A stretch of DNA of 64,000 bases from a candidate division LCP-89 bacterium B3_LCP (GTDB taxonomy: Bacteria; Electryoneota; B3-LCP). The notes under the pieces were generated by a model. It was not told where the DNA came from. It did not search any database and was given only the letters and a program-made list of their open reading frames with translations. The translations under genes and the position numbers were made by a program. Position 1 is the first letter of the stretch, and each line of letters opens with the position of its first letter. This document shows, in pieces, positions 45,234 to 52,740 of the stretch. The stretch lies in the NCBI GenBank assembly GCA_005223185.1, contig NJBN01000002.1, positions 372,001 through 436,000 of the forward strand, in the 5' to 3' direction.

Positions 45234-46139
45234 TTAACCGATTGTTATTTCTCTGAAATCCGCTGGTCTCTGGATTTTACCTAAGCCGCGGTTTTCAGCT
45301 TCTACCAGGTATCCTAAGCTTAAGGGATCACTTCCGAATAGGCGCGCACCTTCAGCATCTACCGCGACCGGATCGAAGCCCACAATCACTGTATTCATGA
45401 TCTCGACGTCATCCGGATTACCCCCCTGTGGTCCGTTGCGTCGCAGCACCCGCCGGGCATCCAGAATGGTCAATTCGGGCAATATGGGGCTGACAATGTC
45501 AATTAATTTCTGATCGAACTGCTTGTGAATAGTAGATCGCGGTTCCCCCATGACTCCCATCAGGTTCTTCAATCCCATCGAGACTCCAGCCAGAGAATGG
45601 TGCTTCAGAACCGGCATGTTGATGCGAAGATCAGCGTTCAGGTAATCTCTGTAAATGGGCCATTTTTTCAATACCATTCCACCCGGTAGTTCAACGCTGT
45701 TAAACCGTTTCTCATGCACGAATGAGACCTTGGCACCCGCCTCTTCGGCCGCCTGGCCGATACCGCTGCGCCTGTAGCAGCGGCGAGCTGCATTGCAGGT
45801 GAAATCGAAGATGTGTACTTTTGCATCAGCATCCACAAAGGTCCTAACAGCAGCAGCAACTAACTCAGGATCTGTGTTCGCTCCCTGCGCAGGAGTACGG
45901 TCCCAGCCGATATTAGGCTTCACCACAACTTTCTTACCCTTAGGTGAAAACCGGGAGATTCCTCCAAGTTCTGCCAATGCCGCTTCCAACGCCTCAGCAG
46001 AAGTCCCCCCCCTGACCAATACCAGAGAAGATGCTGTCGTTTCATCTGCCCGTAAATACCAAGGTACGCTTAAAGCAGCAGTTCCCAGTACGGCGCTTTT
46101 CAGGAACTTGCGGCGGTTGTAGTTTTTTATCTCGTTCAT
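45234..46139 (-). CDS. DUF362 protein with Tat-type signal
   Basis: 301 residues. The N-terminus NRRKFLKSAVLGTAALSVP is a twin-arginine signal, so the folded protein is exported and probably carries a cofactor. The body matches DUF362 (VVVKPNIGWDRTP, MPVLKHHSLAGVSMGLKNLM, FDPVAVDAEGARLFG), a family of unknown function often tied to Fe-S proteins. It lies directly upstream of the membrane polyferredoxin gene. A shared redox role is the simple reading. The upstream side carries a copy of the hairpin element, which may contain or displace its promoter. Confidence 0.85.
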   Translation of the reverse strand: MNEIKNYNRRKFLKSAVLGTAALSVPWYLRADETTASSLVLVRGGTSAEALEAALAELGGISRFSPKGKKVVVKPNIGWDRTPAQGANTDPELVAAAVRTFVDADAKVHIFDFTCNAARRCYRRSGIGQAAEEAGAKVSFVHEKRFNSVELPGGMVLKKWPIYRDYLNADLRINMPVLKHHSLAGVSMGLKNLMGVMGEPRSTIHKQFDQKLIDIVSPILPELTILDARRVLRRNGPQGGNPDDVEIMNTVIVGFDPVAVDAEGARLFGSDPLSLGYLVEAENRGLGKIQRPADFREITIG

Positions 46140-46160
46140 GATGTTGGTGTTTTTCTATTT

Positions 46161-46285
46161 GCACCGGACTAAAGTTCCGGTGCTCACCCAAAGCATCCAA
46201 TTTACTAAAGTCAATAAGCTTACTTAACCTCAGTCTCTTCAGAGACTTGGATCTACCATGTGAGCACCCGAATTTCAATCGGGTG
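46161..46285. repeat. multi-hairpin element, copy A (125 bp)
   Basis: Hairpin 1 GCACCGGA/TCCGGTGC (46161-46183); an outer stem TGCTCAC (46181-46187) pairing with GTGAGCA (46260-46266); inside it hairpin 2 (ATTTACT/AGTCAAT, one mismatch) and hairpin 3 AGTCTC/GAGACT; then hairpin 4 CACCCGA/TCGGGTG ending at 46285. It lies just upstream of the DUF362 gene and 10 bases from the transposase remnant. Confidence 0.93.
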
Positions 46286-46295
46286 AGAGCGAACA

Positions 46296-46673
46296 TCAAT
46301 CTTGATGATGTTGTGCCTGATTAAGCACATATTGTTTAGCAATCTCGAGTGATTTCAATCCAACGGTATTTGCGCCATATCCTTTCTGCCATTTCAGAGT
46401 TTCACCAAACTTGAGATTAACTAATCTAGAGGATCTACCCTTAATATATTTAACAAGTTCACCTATTTTGTGTGAAGATTTGAATTCGACAAAAAGATGG
46501 ACATGTTCCTCTAAAATATTCAGCGCAATAATTTTATATCCGTTTGACTTACAGAGATTCTTGATTACATCTTCTACGAAAGTTTTAATCCCAGGCGAAA
46601 TCATTTCACCTCGTTGCGCAGTGCACCAGGTTAAATGAACGAAAAGATGATGAGCTTTACTGTCTGATCACAT
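46296..46673 (-). pseudogene. IS200-like (Y1/REP-type) transposase, start codon region broken
   Basis: From 46604 down to 46296 the frame encodes 102 residues with the HUH motif EEHVHLFVEF and the catalytic-tyrosine region AKQYVLNQAQHH of Y1 transposases. The same frame continues upstream as KAHHLFVHLTWCTAQRGE, clearly the family's first beta-strand, but no ATG, GTG or TTG is found there: it reads ATG (46673-46671) and then TGA at codon 2. So the full protein (about 125 residues) cannot be made from a normal start. The ATG at 46604 would give a product without the first strand. It lies between hairpin-element copies A and B. Confidence 0.8.
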
Positions 46674-46706
46674 ATTTAATAATTATTTATACATTCTCAA
46701 TCACTT

Positions 46707-46831
46707 GCACCGGACTGAAGTTCCGGTGCTCACTCAAGACACCCAATTGACTGAAGTCAATGAGCCTTTATTCGATCAGTCTCTTTAGAGACTTGGAATT
46801 TTCAGGTGAGCACCCGAAATTTATTCGGGTG
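46707..46831. repeat. multi-hairpin element, copy B (125 bp)
   Basis: Same layout and length as copy A: GCACCGGA/TCCGGTGC, outer GTGCTCAC/GTGAGCAC, inner ATTGACT/AGTCAAT (perfect here) and AGTCTC/GAGACT, then CACCCGA/TCGGGTG. Its right end encodes the last codons (TPE-stop) of the neighbouring nuclease-like gene on the minus strand. Confidence 0.93.
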
Positions 46832-47694
46832 TGGAAATGGTTAAATCAAATACCGATGGTGGTTCCTTAGTCCATACTCCTTTTATTCTTTCTTCTTTTA
46901 TGCTAAAAACCAATTGACTAATTGAGTTAAAGATAGAAGGATCAACTTGTGGATTAGCAATCGGATTGAGAAGAAAGGCAATTTCAAATTTTAAATTTCT
47001 ACCACCATATTTATTCTTTATATAGAAGACTCCTCCTATGCTTGTGTTTTGATATATTCCTTCAACGAAAAGTCGAAATAATCCACGATTTTCTCTATCT
47101 GTTTCTAATTCAGAATCCTCAATTAACGGATCCCAAGTTATTTGTGGATTACCATATAATGAATTTTCAAGCTGTTCTAAGCTTAATTCTCCACTTGGAT
47201 AAGTTTCATCAAAAACAATTGGAATTAGTGAACGATTGCCGCCCAGCAGTTTTTTGTATTTCCTTCTCTTTTCATTTATCCTGTTTACAACATAGGGAGC
47301 ATCAGATGCTCGCCACTTAACTTCGTTTTGGATCACTTCTGACGATGGAAACTTCGTAATCACATCCAATATTAGGATCAGGCCACCATTAATTTCAAGA
47401 AAGAAATCAGGTTTGACCGAATCAATTTGAGGTTGAAAAACCAATTCGAATCCTAGTTTCTCAAACAAAGCCCAAGATATTAGTTCATTGGCAGATGAAA
47501 AAAATGTGTGATAGTTATTGGATCGTAAGCTCTTTAGATATTTCCCTTGTTCATTCTGAGGTATTTTCTAATAATATACGCAAGTTTATATAATCTGGTG
47601 CTTTGGCGATGTATGCATTCCAAGGATTTTCCTTGCCTTGTTTGTAAGCAGGTAGTTCTCTTACGTACTCTTGAGTGAAAATCCCCTCAAACAT
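46821..47694 (-). pseudogene. nuclease-like hypothetical gene split by a frameshift
   Basis: Two minus-strand frames abut. The first (47694-47551) starts with ATG and gives 47 residues (MFEGIFTQEYVREL...) ending ENTSE-stop. The second is open from 47567 to 46821 and continues with NEQGKYLKSLRSNNYHTFF and then ELISWALFEKLGFEL. The joined product (about 285 residues) resembles a hypothetical family with a 'F.ELilw.LFe.LGfEv...P......PDF' pattern, here VKPDFFLEINGG followed by LILILDV, suggestive of a PD-(D/E)XK fold with a weak catalytic signature. Frames differ by one inserted base between about 47551 and 47567. The last codons come from hairpin element B. AT-rich. Confidence 0.65.
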
Positions 47695-47718
47695 ATTTTA
47701 TCTCTTTCTCAGCCAACT

Positions 47719-47863
47719 GCACCGGACTAAAGTTCCGGTGCTCATATTTTAGATCCAATTGACTAAAGTCAATAAGCTTACTTAACCTCAGTCTCTTCAG
47801 AGACTTGGATTATTTAGGTGAGCACCCGAATTTCTCCATAGGAGTCCTTCGGACAATAGGGTG
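47719..47863. repeat. multi-hairpin element, copy C (145 bp)
   Basis: As copies A and B, but hairpin 4 carries an extra double hairpin in its loop: CTCC-ATA-GGAG then TCC-TTC-GGA (47834-47853), and its closing stem has become ACCC/GGGT. It lies 40 bases downstream of the miaA stop and next to the start of the frameshifted nuclease gene. Confidence 0.9.
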
Positions 47864-47903
47864 CGAATAGCCTATCATAGTTAAGTTACCACCCAATCCC
47901 TCT

Positions 47904-48860
47904 CTAATCAACAAACAAACCGTTTTTTCTAAGCACATCTAAGGCTAATTCGGCAGCTTCTTCCGCAGGTCTGTTTGCGTCAATCTCGACCCAGCTTACT
48001 CTTTGATTCCTCCCAAACCAGGATATTTGTCGCTTGGCAAACCTTCTCGTATTTCGCTGGAAAAGTCGCACCATTTCGTCGTAATCGTATTCCCTCTTCA
48101 GGTATCCGATTATCTCCACGTAACCCACGCTGTTCAGTGCGTTGTATTCAATTAGAAGGTCAGTACCACTGATGCTCTTGCCTGCGATCAACTTTTCGAC
48201 TTCATCTACAAGACCTTCTTCCAACATTTTCAGGCAGCGAGAATTAATCCGTTCGTATAACTGTTCCCGATGCCAATCAAGTCCCACCATGACCGGAGAA
48301 TAGGGCGGAGGATTAGCTTTTTTTCGCTGCAATTCGCTGATGGGAATGCCAGTTACATAAAAAATCTCTAAAGCCCGTTCGATACGCCGGTAATCAGTAG
48401 GCATTATTTTTCGGGCGGATTCCGGGTCAACTTCCTTTAGATCCGAATATAGCTTTGCTACGCCTTCTTTATCAGCCAGTATCTTTAACCTGTCTCGAAT
48501 TTTGTGATCTGCTGAAGGTCCTGAGAAAAAATCATCCACCAGTGCCGATATATAAAGACCTGAGCCGCCCACTACAAACGGCGTTATCCCCTTTCGGGTA
48601 AGTTCAATGATTTTACCCCTTGCCTGCCGACCGTATTCACCCGCGCTAAAAGTTTCCTTCGGATTCAGACAAGCGATGAAATGGTGAGGTACTCTGGTTA
48701 GTTCATCAGCAGTCGGCTGTGCAGTTCCGATGGGCATCCCCCTGTATATTTGCCGGGAATCAGCCGATATTATTTCTGCCTTGAATCTTTCAGCTATGTG
48801 AAGCGCAACCGCCGTTTTACCCGAAGCTGTCGGTCCTACTAAGAAGGGTACCTTGTCCAT
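47904..48860 (-). CDS. miaA: tRNA dimethylallyltransferase
   Basis: Adds a dimethylallyl group to A37 of tRNAs that read UNN codons. Seen: P-loop GPTASGKT (9-16), SADSRQIYRGMPIGTAQPT, the VGGSGLYISALVDD segment and the tRNA-binding NSRCLKMLEEGLVDEVE region; 318 residues is normal. Its ATG overlaps the mutL stop by one base, a linkage seen in many bacteria. Confidence 0.97.
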   Translation of the reverse strand: MDKVPFLVGPTASGKTAVALHIAERFKAEIISADSRQIYRGMPIGTAQPTADELTRVPHHFIACLNPKETFSAGEYGRQARGKIIELTRKGITPFVVGGSGLYISALVDDFFSGPSADHKIRDRLKILADKEGVAKLYSDLKEVDPESARKIMPTDYRRIERALEIFYVTGIPISELQRKKANPPPYSPVMVGLDWHREQLYERINSRCLKMLEEGLVDEVEKLIAGKSISGTDLLIEYNALNSVGYVEIIGYLKREYDYDEMVRLFQRNTRRFAKRQISWFGRNQRVSWVEIDANRPAEEAAELALDVLRKNGLFVD

Positions 48861-52599: not shown

Positions 52600-52740
52600 G
52601 CCCGGAAATTAATTTCCGGGCTAATTTTATGCTGTCCCGCAAAGCGGGACGCTTTTGTTTTTTCGTCCGTCAGCCGACGGGCCGAAATATATTAGCTCGG
52701 GAATTCTCCGAAGGAGTCCTATGGACATTCCCGTGCGAGC
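52600..52740. repeat. multi-hairpin element, divergent copy D
   Basis: Hairpin 1 GCCCGGAAATT/AATTTCCGGGC (52600-52621); outer stem GGGCTAAT (52618-52625) with ATTAGCTC (52691-52698, one G-T-type mismatch); inner hairpins GTCCCGC/GCGGGAC (52634-52650) and CCGTC/GACGG (52667-52680); terminal hairpin GCTCG.GGGAAT/ATTCCC.CGAGC (52695-52740) with the double-hairpin insert CTCC-GAA-GGAG, TCC-TAT-GGA (52706-52725). Same architecture as copies A-C, with almost no shared stem sequence. Confidence 0.85.

Follow-up and report, generated by a model that had tools for sequence, protein, structure and literature searches.

The window, that is, the whole 64,000-nt stretch of DNA analysed here, comes from the genome of candidate division LCP-89 bacterium B3_LCP (contig NJBN01000002.1, positions 372,001 to 436,000; the host genome, G000). 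In the interval between a DUF362 gene and miaA, three copies (A, B and C) of a repeat family that we call F1 are interleaved with a Y1 transposase gene and a second gene, in the order A-tnpA-B-second gene-C as the preliminary description had given it. An element of another family, F2, lies further along. The features are as follows, with coordinates in the window.

46141-47903, no strand assigned: the whole block A-tnpA-B-second gene-C, between the DUF362 gene (45234-46139) and miaA (47904-48860)
46161-46286, plus strand: F1 copy A, full length, 126 nt, 133 bits with covariance model R1; hairpins H1 at 46162-46182, H2 at about 46200-46215, H3 at 46232-46247 and H4 at 46265-46285; foot tags CTCA 3' of H1 and TGAG 5' of H4
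46293-46673, minus strand: Y1 (HUH/Tyr) transposase gene, class 1 TnpA with the subclass 1.2 signature (Pfam, NCBIfam, motif)
46707-46832, plus strand: F1 copy B, full length, 131 bits with model R1
46821-47696, minus strand: second gene, with a 215-aa open part at 46821-47468, no family match
47719-47864, plus strand: F1 copy C, full length, 126 bits with model R1
52600-52740, plus strand: F2 element with a twin micro-hairpin in its H4 loop; cognate Y1 gene at G000:C15:70789

Copies A, B and C proved to be a single gap-free repeat of about 126-127 nt with pairwise identities of 80-81%, copy C being longer than the other two because its H4 loop holds a twin micro-hairpin of 20 nt. The hairpins follow the order H1, then H2 and H3, then H4 in all of them, so that the three copies and the four-hairpin order recognised earlier are confirmed and belong to one family. 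H1 reads CACCGG-ACT-aa-AGT-T-CCGGTG, with the T unpaired in the stem, H2 reads TTGACT-ga-AGTCAA, H3 reads AGTCTCT-tc-AGAGACT and H4 reads CACCCG-A-ATT-tc-AAT-CGGGTG. On the opposite strand, H4 is the H1 module, including the bulged T, and H3 is the H2 module, while the feet are kept in both inverted hairpin pairs (TGAG at the large hairpin, TCCAA at the small one). A full F1 element is thus built from two inverted copies of a two-hairpin end (an inverted dimer). Structural covariation, on which the preliminary proposal depended, is indeed seen: in an alignment of 15 copies there are compensatory changes at 11 of 41 pairs, found in all four hairpins, with 27 compensatory cells against a shuffled mean of 8.5, and paired cells amount to 95% compared to at most 42% when slid. 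The long-range stem that had been described as enclosing H2 and H3 is present in the sequence, yet none of its four pairs varies on both sides in the same alignment. We therefore reject it as a selected structure, and a special role for it is not supported; the stem is the pairing of the inverted hairpin feet, a consequence of the element's inverted symmetry.

The genome-wide distribution of F1 was obtained from blastn searches and from a covariance model built from the 15 copies, with matches counted at E <= 0.001. Copies were found well beyond the window, as the preliminary description had suggested checking with such a model: copy A gave 27 blastn matches in the host genome, far more than chance would give, and the covariance model gave 64 matches there, counted as 39 distinct places, many of which are matched on both strands as a result of the symmetry of the element. 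Matches are present in all six genomes of the host's bacterial family, each representing one genus (12 to 64 per genome), whereas 33 further genomes from the phylum gave no match. Full copies aligned from the host genome share 71-86% identity. Their hairpins and feet are conserved whereas the spacers are about 25-64% identical between copies, and total length is near-constant among copies that carry no loop insert. No pair among these aligned copies is sufficiently identical to indicate recent movement (best about 86%). Half-elements, consisting of H1-H2 alone or H3-H4 alone, exist as well. Spread by viruses or plasmids was considered and rejected, as viral contigs contained no exact match to the H1 module and plasmids no similar DNA. 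Several local arrangements were also recorded. Two F1 elements bracket a gene that by eye resembles lysyl-tRNA synthetase (L020:5493-7456), and in another genus three H3-H4 half-elements stand in tandem at a spacing of about 240 nt, together with further hairpins (L042, G001:C7:41-578). With respect to transcription, 14 of 19 co-directional contexts had F1 in one sense by our own count, and we claim no orientation bias.

The gene between A and B had been described as a decayed, IS200-like transposase. The affiliation stands, since the protein scores 84 bits against the NCBIfam IS200 model NF033573 (cut-off 55) and matches, by sequence, PDB structures of IS200-type transposases, among them that of ISHp608 TnpA; its score of 30.5 bits against the RAYT model REP_Tyr_transpos does not reach the cut-off of 80. 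It is not a remnant, however, because the Y1 domain is open throughout (Pfam Y1_Tnp, E 6e-26) and the one lesion to be seen is a TGA that immediately follows the likely ATG, at codon 2. The motif YVLNQAQHH, together with KWQ, represents the Y---Q--HH and WQ signature by which TnpA_Y1 subclass 1.2 is defined (Quentin et al. 2018, PMC6006769). The conserved C-terminal tail of about 30 residues of this subclass is missing from the window protein, which ends in QD two residues after HH; tail-like C-terminal ends are present in other Y1 clades of the bacterial family. Judged from its sequence, the gene is probably inactive in the host genome, where no other Y1 gene of the same clade (clade I) was found. 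As the only close transposase in the host has a stop at codon 2, the F1 family is probably no longer moving. Orthologues occur in two other genera, at 46% identity in G004 and 44% in G001, and have the same kind of hairpins on both sides, in agreement with the earlier idea that IS200-like genes elsewhere might be flanked by these elements.

For the second gene, the label 'nuclease-like' found no support, as neither Pfam, NCBIfam nor PADLOC gave a match. Its upstream (5') part contains stops, and its last codons and stop codon lie within hairpin 4 of copy B (46807-46831), so that the element set the C-terminus of the encoded protein. Copy A, tnpA and copy B form a direct, not an inverted, arrangement in the window. 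The surrounding genes keep the order mutL-miaA-DUF362-FeS-Ig across the family (mutL of G002 being outside the compared stretch or unmatched), and the site was compared between host and relatives in line with the check for empty sites proposed earlier. Of the five related genera, four (G001, G003, G004 and G005) have 26-76 nt between miaA and DUF362, and G002 has two unrelated genes there; in the host the interval holds the 1.76-kb block. As the relatives are other genera whose intergenic DNA does not align, the junctions of the block are not readable from them. With the gap short in four genera and filled in the host, the block appears most likely to have been gained in the host lineage, in one or several steps.

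Most Y1 genes of this bacterial family have inverted hairpin flanks. We aligned the upstream flank of each gene with the reverse complement of its downstream flank, taking a score of at least 28 as inverted flanks, for 19 Y1 genes in the six family genomes and for 69 other genes from the same stretches as controls. Inverted hairpin flanks were found for 17 of the 19 Y1 genes compared to one of the 69 controls (Fisher p 5e-15). At the G001 tnpA orthologue the score was 16 and inverted symmetry was not seen. The Y1 genes of the family fall into four transposase clades, each with its own hairpin type, and similarity between proteins correlates with similarity between flanks across genomes (Mantel r 0.69, a value reached by none of 5000 permutations), although shared descent of the loci could add to this correlation. 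The same pattern of inverted flanks is present at Y---Q--HH genes of a second family within the phylum (L218, L220 and L228), and a Saprospiraceae relative has inverted flanks too.

The F2 element in the window, matched by the covariance model at 52600-52736, is probably the 'copy D' of the preliminary description; it has the four-hairpin layout of F1 but belongs to another family with a different sequence. Likewise, the element beside the Y1 gene at G000:C15:70789 has the inverted four-hairpin layout of F1 and a different sequence. F2 has 48 blastn matches in the host genome, with both strands counted, and covaries at 9 of 33 pairs. Since F2 combines the layout of F1 with a Y1 gene of its own, the architecture is common to at least two transposase clades and is not the peculiarity of one repeat. 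Elsewhere in the host genome, two near-identical F2 copies lie 1.1 kb apart, one of them adjoined by an F1 copy (L191 and L192; G000:C15:91621 and C15:90478), and this pair looks like a local duplication. A RAYT-like gene with the class 2 motif YIHDNP (L019:8151-8708; G000:C14:126195) adjoins an F1 element at L019:8792; it probably belongs to a different system.

We interpret A, B and C as non-autonomous, REPIN-like mobile elements of a class-1 Y1 transposase with the subclass 1.2 signature, a reading to which we assign a probability of about 0.75. It agrees with the earlier proposal of a non-autonomous family, REP-like but larger, tied to a Y1 transposase. Weighing against it are the lack of near-identical copies, the missing canonical REP tag in F1, the direct arrangement of A, tnpA and B, and the flanks of the G001 orthologue, whose alignment showed no inverted symmetry. 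The family, its structure and symmetry, the link between hairpin type and transposase clade and the contrast of an occupied host site with short sites in relatives are observations, from which we infer binding, cutting, strand choice and movement by the transposase. One end combines a large H1-type hairpin, whose stem in F1 contains an unpaired T, with a small, perfect H2-type hairpin; between the two lie the foot tag (TGAG in one orientation) and a short spacer. Such ends flank the transposase gene, inverted, in relatives, and the four-hairpin element is two ends joined without the gene, in parallel to the relation of a REPIN to its RAYT gene. Where a strand is exposed, for example as the lagging-strand template, the ends could fold; a TnpA dimer would then bind the large hairpins and their feet, cut the one exposed strand and paste the element into intergenic DNA. 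On the model of IS608 and RAYTs, the gene-less dimer may be moved in trans.

All 25 F1 copies examined with their surroundings are intergenic, many of them less than 100 nt from a gene end, and this placement would also suit hairpins that act as RNA, as terminators or as stabilisers of mRNA 3' ends, selected for that role and owing to the transposase only their former source. Selection on RNA would likewise give the stem covariation seen in F1 and F2, and a role in mRNA has been suggested for some REPs (PMC3733652). However, the covariance model matches both strands at the same places, F1 has no match in Rfam, and an RNA role does not predict that the type of hairpin is tied to the transposase clade. 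We thus regard it as an unlikely explanation. We give even less credit to the idea that the hairpins serve the maintenance of TnpA itself, for example through self-regulation or precise re-integration of the gene, with the dispersed copies as by-products of recombination. Such a process could account for a host with a single clade-I transposase and no recent identical copies, and for the mosaic pattern of A and C, in which an internal stretch of about 49 nt is identical and the differences lie elsewhere; 39 dispersed places and a constant length would nevertheless be difficult to explain unless the element had been actively spread. Finally, although A, B and C share one orientation, bound one gene per interval and have the length of attC-like folded sites, we reject integron-like cassette sites as highly improbable because the GTTRRRY/RYYYAAC core is absent from the F1 consensus (by eye), most F1 copies are solitary, and close copies elsewhere bracket ordinary-looking host genes, such as lysyl-tRNA synthetase-like and symporter-like genes (by eye).

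A second unusual feature is the twin micro-hairpins in loops of F1 and F2 elements. This module consists of two tandem hairpins with 3-nt loops, about 20-22 nt in total, as in TCCCATAGGGA TCCCTTCGGGA, and occurs in the loops of H1, H2 and H4 and in F2 hairpins. Further occurrences are in a hairpin family with ATAGGATT/AATCCTAT and inside a CGTCATTG...CGAGG repeat. Thirteen micro-hairpin pairs enclosed by an outer stem of 6 bp or more were found in 625 kb, compared to none in three shuffles, which preserved local base composition only. In a wider scan, 13 enclosed cases, some listed twice in different registers, fit one unpaired base per side, which points to insertion of the micro-hairpin between two apical bases. 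The micro-stems vary between copies but remain paired. The CGTCATTG...CGAGG...GCAATCTC repeat, with a micro-hairpin inside it at L168-L173 (G000:C14:92683, C1:47323, C16:185399, C6:118593, C7:93687 and C7:103565), resembles the CGTC-type REPs, which are reported to have no dedicated transposase (PMC3733652). Other hairpin families with apical micro-hairpins were seen at about position 403 of L124/L161 and at L143:6657, among them a GTAGGGGCGGGTTT...AAACCCGCCCCTAC palindrome. Together, these occurrences suggest that the micro-hairpin is a general loop module in these genomes.

A broader and distinctly more tentative proposal joins the two phenomena: transposases with the subclass 1.2 signature might keep clade-specific, twin-hairpin REPIN-like families, while micro-hairpins might enter the apices of folded-DNA hairpins as a nested element. 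If so, a module of about 20-22 nt would target folded single-stranded DNA, between two bases of the apical loop, and micro-hairpins at loop apices would make a simple model for studying how folded DNA is entered. REP and REPIN biology is known mainly from class-2 RAYTs, and here a class-1 branch reported to be without REPs has element families, built on a different plan of two hairpins per end with another foot tag and documented by covariation, controls and clade-specific coupling. The matched series of transposases and hairpins within one bacterial family should be useful for understanding how single-stranded DNA transposases read folded DNA.

How does this system compare with those already known? 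Mitochondrial double-hairpin elements are tandem pairs of small hairpins present at many places. The micro-hairpins differ from them in being bacterial, about 20-22 nt long and located where larger repeated hairpins have their apex, with no sign of a common origin. With IS200/IS605 elements (IS608, ISDra2), the present system shares a class 1 TnpA. The ends of IS608 carry a bulged T, as do the large F1 hairpins. Unlike IS200/IS605 elements, however, most relatives' flanks are symmetric, two-hairpin inverted arrays, gene-less copies dominate, and the gene is present as one divergent copy per genome instead of as near-identical, gene-carrying multiple copies (one clade-I gene in G000, with orthologues at 44-46%).

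TIRtrons and their TIRYTs (PMC3733652) likewise have a Y1 gene between terminal inverted repeats that are found elsewhere as dimers. TIRYTs belong to class 2, in the main to subclass 2.1 with HTH tails (PMC6006769), whereas the window transposase is class 1, and the sequences are unrelated. With TnpA_Y1 subclass 1.2 (Quentin et al. 2018, PMC6006769), the Y---Q--HH and WQ signature and a low copy number are shared. No REP is listed for this subclass, which is described as generally without terminal secondary structures (PMC6006769); the inverted hairpin flanks of 17 of 19 genes therefore depart from the published picture, and the window protein differs further in its missing tail. In organisation, REPINs and BIMEs with their RAYT (PMC3116915, PMC2817692, PMC6006769) have in common with F1 short intergenic palindromes, inverted doublets in many copies, the existence of singlets, an adjoining Y1 gene and clade-specific hairpins; as in the REPIN/RAYT system, the transposase gene is flanked by its own type of repeat. 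F1 differs in having two hairpins per end, and hence four per element, and in its foot tag TGAG/CTCA, the canonical GT[AG]G being absent; in F2 and other clades the feet are [A/G/T]TAG, only partly GTAG. Moreover, RAYTs (TnpA_REP) are class 2 with Y---NP, whereas the window transposase is class 1 with Y---Q. The system works like a REPIN system, but stands apart from REPINs in two of their defining traits, the foot tag and the class-2 transposase.
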